64,000 bases of DNA from an uncultured Dehalococcoidia bacterium (GTDB lineage Bacteria > Chloroflexota > Dehalococcoidia > Lucifugimonadales > UBA3495). A program made the position numbers and the translations under genes. The stretch spans positions 2,353,158 through 2,417,157 of the forward strand of contig OX638345.1 of assembly GCA_951813535.1 (NCBI GenBank). Reading direction: 5' to 3'. The notes beneath the pieces are model-generated. The model was not told the DNA's origin and did not search any database. It worked only from the letters and a program-made list of their open reading frames with translations. This document shows, in pieces, positions 4,694-11,327 of the stretch (its first letter is position 1; the number at the start of each line of letters is the position of its first letter).

Positions 4694-5329
4694 ATGCAGT
4701 TGGCAAGCATCGAGCAAGGCCTGCACGACCTGAAAGCCGGCAAATTCCTTATCGTGGTCGACGATGAGGATCGCGAAAACGAAGGCGACTTGGTCATGCC
4801 CGCCGAGTTCGTAACTCCAGAAGCCGTGAACTTCATGGTGACCCACGCCCGTGGGCAGCTCTGCATGCCGATGACCGCGGACCGTTTGGCCGAACTGGAC
4901 ATCCCCATGCTGCCAAGCCGGCACTCAGATTCCCCCATGCCCACCGCTTTCACGATGCCAGTCGACTACGCCATCGACACGACGACCGGCATTTCGGCGC
5001 AGGATCGTGCGGCCACTATTCGAGCCCTCATCGACCCGGACGCGCGGCCGACGGACTTCATCCAACCGGGTCACCTTTTCCCGTTGCGCTATCATGCCGG
5101 GGGTGTCCTGGTTCGTCCCGGTCACACGGAAGCCATTGTGGATCTCTGTCGGTTGGCGGACCTGTACCCCGCCGGCGTAGTGTGCGAGATCATGAAGGAC
5201 GATGGGACAATGGCCCGCCTGCCTGATCTGATCAAGATGGCGGCCGAGCACAAGTTGAACATCCTGTCCATTGCGGATCTGGTCGATTACCGACGCGAGC
5301 ATGACCCGTCGGATGACGAGCCCGACTGA
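4694..5329 (+). CDS. ribB: 3,4-dihydroxy-2-butanone-4-phosphate synthase (single-domain)
   Basis: RibB makes 3,4-dihydroxy-2-butanone 4-phosphate from ribulose 5-phosphate, the four-carbon unit of riboflavin. The 211-residue protein shows the metal and substrate motif DDEDRENEGDLVMPA (residues 24-38), FMVTHARGQLCMPM, TTGISAQDRAATIRAL and RPGHTEAIVDL, where the histidine and glutamate bind the metal. It lies 36 bases downstream of ribE. A second copy of the same domain forms the N-terminal half of the next gene, so this one is apparently redundant unless it sets the balance between the two branches of the pathway. Confidence 0.92.
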   Translation: MQLASIEQGLHDLKAGKFLIVVDDEDRENEGDLVMPAEFVTPEAVNFMVTHARGQLCMPMTADRLAELDIPMLPSRHSDSPMPTAFTMPVDYAIDTTTGISAQDRAATIRALIDPDARPTDFIQPGHLFPLRYHAGGVLVRPGHTEAIVDLCRLADLYPAGVVCEIMKDDGTMARLPDLIKMAAEHKLNILSIADLVDYRREHDPSDDEPD

Positions 5330-5421
5330 GGCAGCCGGGGACCGTCCACCGGTCGACACGATGGTTCGCTGACTGACCGGTTCACCCGGGCTACAAACAT
5401 TCCGCATCCCTCGGAGGAAAA

Positions 5422-6654
5422 ATGCCCCTATGCAGCCTTGAAGAGGCGCTCGAAGATCTGACCTCCGGCAAGTTTGTCATCGTGGTCGACGACGAGGGGC
5501 GCGAGAACGAGGGTGACCTGTTCCTGTTCGCTGAGCATGCCACGCCCGAGGCAGTCGCTTTTATGGTGACCCACGCCCGGGGACTGGTATGCGTTCCGAT
5601 GCAGGGCGAACGCTTGGATGAACTCCAGATCCCCAACCTGCGGAGCCGCAACGCCCCTTCATCGCAGCCAACGGCGTTCACGACTTCCGTGGATTACAAA
5701 CACGGTACGTCCACCGGCATCTCCGCCTTTGATCGCAGCGCCACCATTCGCGCTCTGGTCGACCCCCACGCGCTGCCCGCCGATTTCGTCCAACCCGGGC
5801 ACATGTTCCCGTTGCGGTGCAACCCGGGCGGTGTCTTGAATCGTCCCGGTCACACTGAGGCGGTCGTCGATCTATGCAAACTGGCGGGCGCGTATCCTGC
5901 TGGCGTGGTCTGCGAGATCATGAACACCGACGGCACGATGTCCCGCCTGCCGGAACTGGAACAGTTTGCTGCCAGGCACGATCTCAAAATATTCAGCATC
6001 GCGCAGCTGATCGCCCATCGTCGGATCAGCGAGTCCCTGATCTCCCGGGTCGCGGAGGCGAACCTGCCCACCAAGTACGGCGTTGCGCGGATAATCGGCT
6101 ACCGCAGTTCAATAGACAGCGGGGAACACGCGGCATTGGTGGTCGGAGACTGGGAAGAAGGCGACGAGGTGCTGGTGCGTGTGCACAGCGAGTGCCTCAC
6201 CGGCGACGCCTTCGGCAGCCTGAAATGCGACTGCGGTGAGCAGTTGGACCTGGCCATCCGGATGATATTCGACAACGGATCGGGGGCCTTGGTCTATCTG
6301 CGCCAGGAAGGGCGGGGAATTGGCCTGCACAACAAGATCAAGGCATACTCGCTGCAGGATCAGGGAATGGACACCATCGAGGCCAACGTGGCCTTGGGAT
6401 TTCAACCGGACGAGCGCAAGTACGACCTTGCCGTCCAGATCATGGGAGACCTCAACATCACCCACGCGAAGCTGGTGACCAACAATCCGCACAAGATGGC
6501 CGGCATCAGCGGTCTTGGCATCCAGGTCACGGATCGCGTGAGTCTGGCGGTCCCGCCGAACGAGACCAACGAGGAGTACATGAGGACCAAGCGCGACAGC
6601 ATGGGGCACTTGATTTCGCCGCTGCAGCCGGGTCCTTCGAACTCGTCCGGTTAG
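5422..6654 (+). CDS. ribBA: bifunctional DHBP synthase / GTP cyclohydrolase II
   Basis: A 410-residue fusion that supplies both precursors of riboflavin. Residues 1-200 repeat the RibB domain, with RENEGDLFLFAEHATPEAV, THARGLVCVPM and RPGHTEAVVDL. Residues 205-405 form GTP cyclohydrolase II, with HSECLTGDAFGSLKCDCGEQ (zinc cysteines) and YLRQEGRGIGLHNKIKAY, the arginine-containing catalytic loop. An AGGAGG-like site (ggaggaaaa) precedes the ATG closely. The final four bases overlap the end of prfB on the other strand, so it ends the rib operon. Confidence 0.95.
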   Translation: MPLCSLEEALEDLTSGKFVIVVDDEGRENEGDLFLFAEHATPEAVAFMVTHARGLVCVPMQGERLDELQIPNLRSRNAPSSQPTAFTTSVDYKHGTSTGISAFDRSATIRALVDPHALPADFVQPGHMFPLRCNPGGVLNRPGHTEAVVDLCKLAGAYPAGVVCEIMNTDGTMSRLPELEQFAARHDLKIFSIAQLIAHRRISESLISRVAEANLPTKYGVARIIGYRSSIDSGEHAALVVGDWEEGDEVLVRVHSECLTGDAFGSLKCDCGEQLDLAIRMIFDNGSGALVYLRQEGRGIGLHNKIKAYSLQDQGMDTIEANVALGFQPDERKYDLAVQIMGDLNITHAKLVTNNPHKMAGISGLGIQVTDRVSLAVPPNETNEEYMRTKRDSMGHLISPLQPGPSNSSG

Positions 6655-7755
6655 TCAGCTCCCAATCGGTTCACCAGCCAGGCTTCGATGAACCCATCGA
6701 TATCACCGGCGAGCACCGCATCCGCATTACCCATCTGGTAGTCCGTGCGATGGTCCTTGACGGACTTGTACGGGTGCAGCACGTAGCTACGGATCTGATT
6801 GCCCCATTCGGCGGAGATCCGTTCGCCGCGTAGAGCTGACAACGCCTGGGCCCGTTCCTCTTCGCGCTGCGCCAGGAGCTTCGCCCGCAGGATCCTCATC
6901 GCGTAATCCCGGTTCTGGTGTTGGGATCTCTCGGTCTGGCACGTGACCACTATGCCGGAAGGCACGTGGGTCAACCTCACCGCCGAAGCGACCTTCTGCA
7001 CGTTCTGGCCGCCGGGTCCACTGGAACGGAAGAAGTCCATTTTCAGGTCGTCTGACCGCAGTTCCACCTCTGTATCGTCGTCGACAGCAGCCGGCAGCAC
7101 CTCGACGCGGGCGAATGAAGTCTGCCGCCGTCGCGCCGGATCGAAGGGAGAAATGCGCACCAGCCGATGCACCCCTACTTCAGCGTTCAGGTAACCGAAG
7201 GCGTGCTGCCCGCCGATTTCCAGCGTGCTGGTGCGCAGGCCGGCTTCGTCGCCGTAAGCGGTGTTCAGCACCTGGATCGGCCGACTGCTCGTGGCAGCCC
7301 AACTGGAATACATTCCCGTCAGCATCTCGACCCAGTCGTGGGAATCAGTGCCCCCGGCGCCAGAGTGGATGGTCAATATCGCCGCACGATCGTCGTAAGG
7401 ACCCGACAGGGTCAGCTCCATCTCCGCCCTTGCCAGGCTCGCGGCGGTGGTCGCCGTCTCGGCGGACAACTCTTCAGCGACGCTCTCGTCGTCGCTTTCT
7501 ATCGCCAGCGAAGTTAGCTCAAGCAGGTCGGCCACCTGGCCCTGCAGCCCGTGCCACAATTCCACCGAGTGCTGCAACCGACCCAGTTCCTGCATTTTGC
7601 GTTGGGCCGTCGTGGGATCGTCCCAGAATCCCGGAGCAGACGCCTCCTTTTCCAGCTCGGCGATGGATTTCTCGCGCCCTGGGAGGTCAAAGACGCTCCA
7701 TGACCGCGTCCAACTTGGTGGACATGTCTTCAAGTTGCTGGCGCAGTTCTTCCAT
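6651..7755 (-). CDS. prfB: peptide chain release factor 2, with programmed +1 frameshift
   Basis: RF2 recognises UGA and UAA stop codons and triggers peptide release. Starting at the ATG complementary to 7753-7755, translation gives 22 residues ending MERL, then meets UGA at 7689-7687; skipping one base continues as [16 protein letters not shown]. The rest matches RF2: codon-recognition SPF tripeptide in [11 protein letters not shown], and the peptidyl-transferase GGQ in [11 protein letters not shown]. With the shift the product is 367 residues, the normal size. A TATAAT-type -10 box reads on this strand at 7803-7798. The gene converges on ribBA with a four-base overlap. Confidence 0.93.
7686..7699 (-). 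promoter_or_regulatory. RF2 autoregulatory +1 frameshift site
   Basis: The mRNA reads GGAG-CGU-CUU-UGA-C. This is the same layout as the classic prfB site: a Shine-Dalgarno-like GGAG three bases before the CUU slip codon, then UGA followed by C, a poor termination context. When RF2 is scarce the ribosome shifts by one base and completes the protein. The reading frame on both sides encodes conserved RF2 sequence. Confidence 0.93.
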
Positions 7756-7922
7756 CGCGAGACCCTCCGAGCACCGGGAGATTTCATCCGGTGGTCAATT
7801 ATAACGCAGGCCCACGCGCCGCCCCGAAGTTTCGAACCCGGCGTCCGGATTTCCCGAAAAGTCCATCCGCTATAATGATTTGACAAGTTTTTGCTCCGCT
7901 CAACCATCAGGCAGGTACGACA

Positions 7923-9775: not shown

Positions 9776-10636
9776 CTACTGCACCAGCTTCTCAAACTCG
9801 GACGTGAACTCGTCGGATCCGCCGCCGCCGAAGCCCTTGCGGAAGGTGATCACGCCGGCGCCGTCAACGGCGACAATCGATGATTGGCTGGTGATCCTCA
9901 GATCGGCCAGCATGCTTCCCACTGGCGCTGCCGCGATCATGTTGCTGTATCCCTGCCCTGCGATGTAGTTGTCGATGGTCTCCCCGCTCTCGTTGAATGC
10001 CACCACGTAGGTGTCGACCTGGCCTGCGTATTGGGGAACTATGGAACTGAGCGTCCGTAACTCGGCGCGGCAGACTGGTCACCAGGTCGCGAAGTACACC
10101 ATGAACACCGGCTTCCCGCTCCCCACGATGCTCGCCGACTCCAGGGTGCTGCCGTCAGCGAGGGCCATCGTAAACGCCGGAGGCGTTTCACCGACGTCTG
10201 TTCCGACATCCACCGCCGGCGCCGGTGTGGCTGGTGGTTCCGGCGCCGGCGTATCCGTAGCCGCCGGGGGCGGAGCAGTGGGCGCCGCAGTGGCCGGAGC
10301 CGCGGTGGTGACCGCCGAAGCTGGCGCGGCCGTCGCCGCCGGAGCGCTCGTCGGCGCGTCGGTGGGCGACACTGCCGCGGCCGCGACTGCCGGCGTTGCA
10401 ACCGACGTCGGTTGTGTGCCCCCCGCAGCCGGGGCCGCGGTCGCCGCCGGCGCGGCCTGCGCAGCCGCAGCCGTGGGAGCCTGTTCCTGCGCTGTCGTCG
10501 GCGCCGATGCCTGAGTCGCCGGCTGGGCTGGCGTAGACGGCGGTTCCGGAGCGGCAGGGGATCCGCACGCGACCAGCGTTGCCCCCACCAGGGTAGCGAC
10601 CGCGCACGCCATCAGTGTTTTTCTGACTGTTTTCAT
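9776..10636 (-). CDS. putative selenoprotein: thioredoxin/TlpA-like lipoprotein with UPVC motif (gene A)
   Basis: Translated from the ATG at 10636 the frame runs through a single in-frame UGA (10081-10079) to a TAG at 9776, giving 286 residues if UGA is read as residue 186. The first part has a lipoprotein signal (VGATLVACGSP), then about 110 residues rich in Ala, Pro and Thr, a flexible spacer. The C-terminal part is a TlpA/AlkHP-like thioredoxin fold: PAFTMALADGSTLE, then VYFATW-U-PVCRAEL, then YVVAFNE and IVAVDGAGVI. In relatives the position after FATW is the first cysteine of CxxC, so UGA is best read as selenocysteine, giving a UxxC redox motif. A hairpin at 10068-10051 fits a bacterial SECIS. 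No proline is seen at the usual cis-Pro position. It lies 40 bases downstream of a paralogue built the same way. The product should be an outward-facing membrane-tethered reductase. A nonsense-mutated gene is the alternative, but the paralogue argues against it. Confidence 0.82.
10051..10068 (-). promoter_or_regulatory. bSECIS hairpin of selenoprotein gene A
   Basis: Bases 11-28 after the UGA fold as GCG-CCG, loop AGUUA, CGG, bulged A, CGC: six base pairs with one bulge. The loop begins 17 bases after UGA and has G as its second base, in the range reported for bacterial SECIS elements. The second gene has the same fold with a C-G to U-A pair change. Confidence 0.75.
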
Positions 10637-10676
10637 TTCCACCTTGCGGCGTCCACGACGCCGGAACCTACTGTCA

Positions 10677-11327
10677 TCAAGCCGGCAGCTGCAAATCCAT
10701 CAGCCGCCGGTCCTGTTCCTTTTTGACTTCCGTTTTGGTTGGTATCGCGTGGGGGTCAGCTGTCAGCGCGGTGAACTGTGGCGACCACTGGTCCGCGCTG
10801 CCCATCAACTGCCGGTGGTAGATAACTCCGTCGGCGTTTACCGCCATCATCGCCATCTGGCGCGTGATTTCCAGGTCGGAAAGCATGGCTCCGACGGGTT
10901 GCGCGGCGATCAGGTCGGTGTATCCGTTCTCTTCTATATACGCTTCAACGACCTCGGCGGGTTCATTGTAGGCGACTACGTAGAAGTCGATTTCTGGAAA
11001 CTCGCTGGCTATGGGGTTCAGCGTCTGCAACTCAGCGCGACACTCCGGTCACCAGGTGGCAAACCAGAATAGATGCGCGGGCTGGCCACTAGCTGCCAGG
11101 GCGTCCGACGAAATTTCGGACCCGTCCGCCAGAATCATGGCGAAAGGCGGGCTGGGTTCCCCGATCTTCAGGTTGCCGCTATCCTCGGGCGCAGCCATGG
11201 AGTCCATCTCCATGCCGGCCATACCGCTCCCGCCGTCGTTGGCTGCGGGCGCGCAGGCTGCCATCGCCAATAGCGCTGTGAGCGCCATCGCGCACAGCAG
11301 CAGCCGCAGTTTGAAAGTCTTGTTCAT
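10677..11327 (-). CDS. putative selenoprotein: thioredoxin/TlpA-like lipoprotein with UPEC motif (gene B)
   Basis: From the ATG at 11327, with an AAGGAG ribosome site upstream, the frame crosses one in-frame UGA (11051-11049, codon 93) and ends at two consecutive UGA codons at 10679, giving 216 residues. It starts with a lipoprotein signal (lipobox near AMAACAP), then a short Met- and Gly-containing linker. The thioredoxin-like domain reads PPFAMILADGSEI, LFWFATW-U-PECRAEL, YVVAYNEPAEVVEAYIEENG and MMAVNADGVI. The UGA sits exactly at the first CxxC cysteine position, as in the downstream paralogue, and is followed at the same distance by an equivalent hairpin. I read it as selenocysteine. It is the first gene of a two-gene unit with gene A. 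The last 30 residues after VIYHRQLMG are polar and lack similarity to gene A. Sec machinery genes are not in the window. Confidence 0.82.
11021..11038 (-). promoter_or_regulatory. bSECIS hairpin of selenoprotein gene B
   Basis: Bases 11-28 after the UGA fold as GCG-CUG, loop AGUUG, CAG, bulged A, CGC. Compared with gene A, one stem pair changes from C-G to U-A while both sides stay paired. That is covariation rather than simple protein-level conservation, since the second change also alters the amino acid. Confidence 0.75.

Follow-up and report, generated by a model that had tools for sequence, protein, structure and literature searches.

Within the window, the whole stretch of 64,000 nucleotides that was analysed, two adjacent genes on the reverse strand each carry a single internal UGA, at an equivalent position that corresponds to the first residue of a CxxC-like motif. 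The question is whether these codons are read as selenocysteine (Sec) and, if so, what the two products may do. The original prediction had described the genes as tandem TlpA-like lipoproteins with one in-frame UGA each, forming a selenoprotein pair, and the layout found for the locus agrees with this description:

9776..10636, reverse strand: gene A, encoding a Sec-containing TlpA/Prx-like putative lipoprotein of 286 aa with Sec as residue 186 (with the UGA read through, the reading frame is open from the ATG at 10636 to a stop that ends at 9776; matches over cut-off to Pfam AhpC-TSA and Redoxin)
10565..10636, reverse strand: gene A putative signal peptide and lipobox (LVA-C, Cys24), read from the sequence, with similar lipoprotein N-termini in congeners
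10079..10081, reverse strand: gene A in-frame UGA, the Sec codon, in the context FATW-U-PVCRAEL, kept in congeners
10051..10068, reverse strand: gene A SECIS hairpin, GCG-CCG, loop AGUUA, CGG-(A)-CGC, with the loop starting 16 nt past the UGA and with covariation in relatives
9785..10195, reverse strand: gene A thioredoxin-fold domain (Pfam match, A-B alignment, clade-wide Pfam matches)
10677..11327, reverse strand: gene B, encoding a Sec-containing TlpA/Prx-like putative lipoprotein of 216 aa with Sec as residue 93 (open reading frame with the UGA read through, start ATG at 11327; Pfam)
11253..11327, reverse strand: gene B putative signal peptide and lipobox (MAA-C, Cys25), read from the sequence and from congener N-termini
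11049..11051, reverse strand: gene B in-frame UGA, the Sec codon, in the context FATW-U-PECRAEL, kept in congeners
11021..11038, reverse strand: gene B SECIS hairpin, GCG-CUG, loop AGUUG, CAG-(A)-CGC, with covariation in relatives
10764..11165, reverse strand: gene B thioredoxin-fold domain with Met at the usual cis-Pro position (AlphaFold model, pLDDT 91.5; ResA Z ~17, CcmG Z 15.3; clade alignment)
10674..10679, reverse strand: tandem UGA UGA terminating gene B, read directly from the sequence

An alignment of 137 residues across the UGA gives 46% identity between proteins A and B (E = 2e-42). The host genome, a single contig of 4.38 Mb that is 99.8% complete, encodes all four components for which a search had been proposed, namely selA, selB, selC (tRNA-Sec) and selD, each over its curated cut-off: tRNA-Sec with the anticodon UCA (66.4 bits), SelB (354.8 bits), SelA (542 bits, located 246 bp left of the window) and SelD (370 bits), whose own gene has an in-frame UGA. 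The selA gene (G000:C1:2351569-2352912) is situated about 10 kb from the pair (window 9776-11327); it is similarly linked to the pair in most congeners, and it lies within ~8-16 kb in G022, G024, G034, G060 and G063. Among the genomes searched, SelA scored over cut-off in 58 of 61 with a UGA copy versus 26 of 38 without one (Fisher p = 8e-4; counts tallied manually across two tables), and the three UGA-copy genomes without SelA over cut-off are 75-83% complete.

A reassignment of UGA to a standard amino acid, or simple read-through without Sec, is very improbable, having nothing in its favour beyond the UGA itself. It is opposed by the full Sec machinery, by the covarying SECIS described below and by homologues that have Cys there, two of them from genomes without SelA. 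In addition, UGA terminates thrS as well as, twice over, gene B, so it retains its function as a stop within that gene.

Homologues with the UGA were found in at least 61 of the 99 genomes searched, weak matches not being among those listed, and they are spread through the family and the order; a sample of 301 genomes of the phylum added two UGA members from outside the order. Those relatives that have names are metagenome genomes from SAR202 or from other Dehalococcoidia or Chloroflexota. Both UGAs are retained in every intact congener copy. The original prediction, which held that translation must pass the UGA, had named three observations that would speak against it: absence of all Sec machinery from the genome, homologues ending at the UGA and a sequencing error at either site. 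None of them holds. The machinery is complete, as described above. Homologues do not stop there, the conserved protein continuing beyond the UGA, and a sequencing error is excluded because the codon is conserved across many genomes. Purifying selection on the protein continues past the UGA in both genes, with dN/dS of 0.20 before and 0.24 after it in gene A, and of 0.27 on both sides in gene B. Thus the idea that the genes are pseudogenes, or that each UGA is an error, has nothing in its favour and is already refuted by the conservation of the UGA in congeners and beyond and by the low dN/dS downstream of it.

The SECIS element, which the original prediction did not include, is a hairpin 3' of the UGA in the 78 UGA proteins, with a stem that starts at base 14 (the U of UGA being base 1) and a loop lying 16 nt past the codon. 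In 47 distinct sequences from outside the genus the stem is paired in 93.6% of cells, and each of the six base pairs shows substitutions on both sides, 48 cells being of this kind. None of 500 shuffles gave a covariation score as high, and slid controls scored far lower. Within the genus this stem recurs, with a single A bulged out. All 68 distinct sequences have GUU at the centre of the loop. The loop's Leu codon is TTR in 77 of 77 cases, whereas Leu codons at other places in these domains are TTR in 144 of 794 (p = 1e-51; the SECIS p-values are inflated by shared ancestry). The bacterial SECIS consensus comprises a loop of 3-9 nt, a stem of 4-16 bp, a G in the first two loop positions and a distance of 16-37 nt from the UGA (PMC13188914); the element of the pair agrees with it in having a 5-nt loop (AGUUR), a 6-bp stem, G at loop position 2 and a spacing of 16 nt. 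Machinery, conservation, SECIS and selection all support the selenoprotein pair, and we regard it as practically certain that A and B are bona fide selenoproteins.

Scanning the whole genome with the SECIS model gave three strong matches: genes A and B and another selenoprotein of the TlpA type. Weaker matches were rejected as having no open frame around a UGA. Three more UGA genes of the host, whose hairpins differ, escaped the scan; they encode SelD, a DUF3179-like protein and a TlpA-type protein in L096. Set against the effect of shared ancestry on the p-values, an AGUUG loop is also present in two TlpA-type selenoproteins of the host that are more distant and have different amino acids around it; these are UPHC proteins with a cis-Pro and an AGUUG-loop hairpin:

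L126 (G000:C1:2632964-2632997): first further TlpA-type UPHC selenoprotein
L096:1923-2771, reverse strand: second further TlpA-type UPHC selenoprotein, with its UGA near G000:C1:1144514

The second of these is adjoined by a DUF3179-like protein gene with an in-frame UGA in the context ITF-U-PLC (L096:2785-4188, reverse strand). Its name rests on the motif, NCBIfam giving no match; DUF3179 selenoproteins are listed in PMC13188914.

In a quick maximum-likelihood tree, which has few columns and leaves many forks open, the UGA proteins form one clade (SH-aLRT 100). The original prediction had suggested looking for homologues with Cys at the UGA site, and three were found (G072, G080 and G091), all nested inside the clade; G080 and G091 are without SelA over cut-off, while G072 has it. 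Other TlpA proteins also carry Cys at this position. Because the Cys members are nested among the UGA proteins, the ancestral state of the clade looks to be Sec, which changed to Cys three times. Inside the genus, A and B form sister groups, which makes their tandem duplication about as old as the genus itself; other tandems in the order arose separately.

Both proteins score above the Pfam gathering score of 26 for PF00578 (AhpC-TSA), with 30.2 and 34.7 bits, and carry the UxxC motif. The AlphaFold model predicts a thioredoxin fold of the TlpA/ResA/CcmG-like type with the redox pair located where helix 1 starts: residue 48 is U or C and residue 51 is Cys, both invariant in the clade, and the helix (49-64) begins after residue 48. 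The Glu in the CxxC helix, which corresponds to ResA Glu80, is kept in 76 of 78 rows of the alignment. The cis-proline is, to our knowledge, otherwise near-universal in thioredoxin-fold proteins; it is absent from all 78 clade rows (one row being a duplicate), where Ser, Met, Ala, Thr or Asp occupies the position, versus 33 of 33 other TlpA proteins of the phylum that have it. Its absence is, in the alignment, what sets the clade apart from TlpA, ResA and CcmG, and the substitution (Ser/Met/Ala) may alter substrate docking.

The main rival to a reductase function is a peroxidase-type role. The proteins could be Prx-like peroxidases in which Sec attacks hydroperoxides and the second Cys of the motif is resolving. 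Pfam places all 75 aligned clade members in AhpC-TSA and Redoxin (E <= 0.001), the TlpA-typical cis-Pro is missing, and the model matches thiol peroxidases (Tpx and Bcp, Z 16-17, ~16.8) nearly as well as ResA-type structures (Z 17-18, ~17 for ResA); CcmG reaches Z 15.3. A peroxidase-like role thus keeps some weight, because without the cis-Pro the peroxiredoxin-type folds match almost as well as ResA, although we consider it improbable. Against it, the best sequence matches of the pair are of the DsbF, CcmG, ResA and TlpA types, and Sec is here the first residue of UxxC, whereas the Sec peroxiredoxins listed in PMC13188914 have TxxU.

Both products look like lipoproteins with an export-type signal, the putative lipidation resting on a reading of the lipobox Cys (LVAC in A and MAAC in B). 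A simple lipobox pattern was found in 44 of the 78 UGA proteins, the rest being missed by the pattern or having a membrane helix, and some paralogues elsewhere have such a helix in place of the lipoprotein signal. The linker of gene A is a long Ala/Pro/Thr segment and that of gene B is Met-rich (GMAGMEMDSM, window 11195-11232). The original prediction had considered an exported lipoprotein pair with long linkers as not known to be described in this lineage. The open-access literature yielded no paper on the clade. Linker length varies among clade members, and long linkers are not diagnostic.

The explanation that we favour, with a probability of roughly 0.7, is that of a genus-old duplicated selenoprotein pair acting as an extracytoplasmic thiol/selenol-disulfide reductase. 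The UGA would be decoded by the SelB-type route, using tRNA-Sec, SelA, SelB and SelD together with a SECIS with an invariant GUU loop. Each product would then be exported and lipidated at the lipobox Cys, and a flexible linker would hold it at the outer surface of the cytoplasmic membrane. In this location, the predicted TlpA/ResA-like thioredoxin fold would bear Sec as the nucleophile at the N-terminus of helix 1, within the motif U-P-x-C-R-A-E, and would most likely cycle between selenol/thiol and selenenylsulfide (U-C) forms. The protein most likely acts as a fast extracytoplasmic disulfide (or oxidised-thiol) reductase, and its role would probably be the repair of, or protection against, oxidised envelope thiols.

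A cytochrome c maturation thioredoxin of the CcmG/ResA type that uses Sec was weighed against this reductase and appears quite unlikely. ResA and E. coli CcmG are among the solved structures nearest in fold, the pair's clade keeps the ResA-type Glu, and the host genome has a cytochrome c assembly system. However, the pair is located away from the ccm cluster, is missing the cis-Pro, and stands in a genome without a DsbD/CcdA match. The cluster itself (L177 and L100, G000:C1:480651-484250), as far as gene names can be read from sequence, encodes a cytochrome-like protein, CcmH, CcmF and an all-Cys CcmG-like protein. The pair is probably not the maturation thioredoxin because this separate WCGPC protein, which has a cis-Pro (GIPEKF), is encoded ~1.3 kb downstream of ccmF.

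As to partners of the proposed reductase, the host genome gave no match to the DsbD/CcdA-type families (PF02683, PF13386), a result that coexists with the ccm cluster, or to VKOR (PF07884), and no recurrent functional partner was seen among the neighbouring ORFs read outside the genus. More tentatively, and with rather less than even odds, the clade might be an order-wide exported class in which Sec is ancestral and normal and the cis-Pro is gone, Sec and the altered loop together making a distinct envelope reductase that depends on selenium and draws its electrons from a source of its own other than DsbD.

Members of the genus have the gene order ribBA-prfB-thrS-A-B in common wherever their contigs reach far enough. 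Positions 4694-6654 of the window hold a RibB-like gene and, immediately after it, a RibBA gene whose RibB domain is similar; congeners show this order as well. The prfB gene (RF2; window 6651-7866, reverse strand), which adjoins thrS on the side away from the selenoprotein pair, is seemingly split at a UGA near 7687-7689, after MERL; we take this to resemble the classical programmed +1 frameshift site.

Most SAR202-type Dehalococcoidia, an abundant group, have not been cultured, and ordinary gene calling stops at UGA. A conserved part of their envelope redox chemistry is therefore easily missed. The clade provides natural Sec/Cys replacements, some of them matching the loss of SelA, a thioredoxin active site without the cis-Pro and a clean SECIS model for finding more selenoproteins in the lineage.

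Among known systems, UxxC/UxxU Prx-like thiol:disulfide oxidoreductase selenoproteins (PF00578) and UxxC thiol-disulfide isomerase-like selenoproteins have been listed (PMC9312934, PMC13188914), so that UxxC thioredoxin-fold selenoproteins are, as the original prediction stated, already known. What is added here to that prediction is the SECIS hairpin, the missing cis-Pro, the order-wide clade and the prior knowledge of UxxC in this Pfam class. The open-access literature, in which SAR202/Dehalococcoidia and selenocysteine papers were judged by title and abstract, yielded no paper describing the clade, and none joining selenoproteins with SAR202 or with TlpA and Chloroflexi. No NCBIfam model covers the UGA clade. 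The family NF041057 (Rcas_1661) resembles the pair by its description, a thioredoxin-like (seleno)lipoprotein, and was rejected on scores, gene A reaching 10.4 bits versus a cut-off of 190 and gene B having no listed match. The streptococcal surface lipoprotein thioredoxin Etrx2 (SP_1000) of Streptococcus pneumoniae, a solved structure from another phylum, was compared for fold and anchor only, and is likewise lipid-anchored with a TlpA-like fold (Z 15.2). With ResA, CcmG (DsbE) and TlpA the pair shares the fold (ResA Z ~17, CcmG Z 15.3), the predicted membrane anchoring, UPxC at the CxxC position and the Glu of the active-site helix; it differs from them in having Sec for the first Cys and no cis-Pro, and in scoring well below the NCBIfam cut-offs for dsbE (32.6 and 38 versus 123), ResA (29.1 and 28 versus 170) and TlpA (17.3 and 21.7 versus 230). 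With the published PF00578 UxxC selenoproteins it has in common the AhpC-TSA domain, the UxxC motif and a bacterial SECIS after the UGA, whereas its clade is single, centred on one Dehalococcoidia order, mostly lipoprotein-like and repeatedly tandem. The clade also lacks the cis-Pro; if the published members lack it too, the variant would reach beyond this order and the claim of a variant shrinks to that of a new member. The kind is thus known, as UxxC selenoproteins in PF00578 and in TlpA-type domains, and the pair is a well-defined variant of it.
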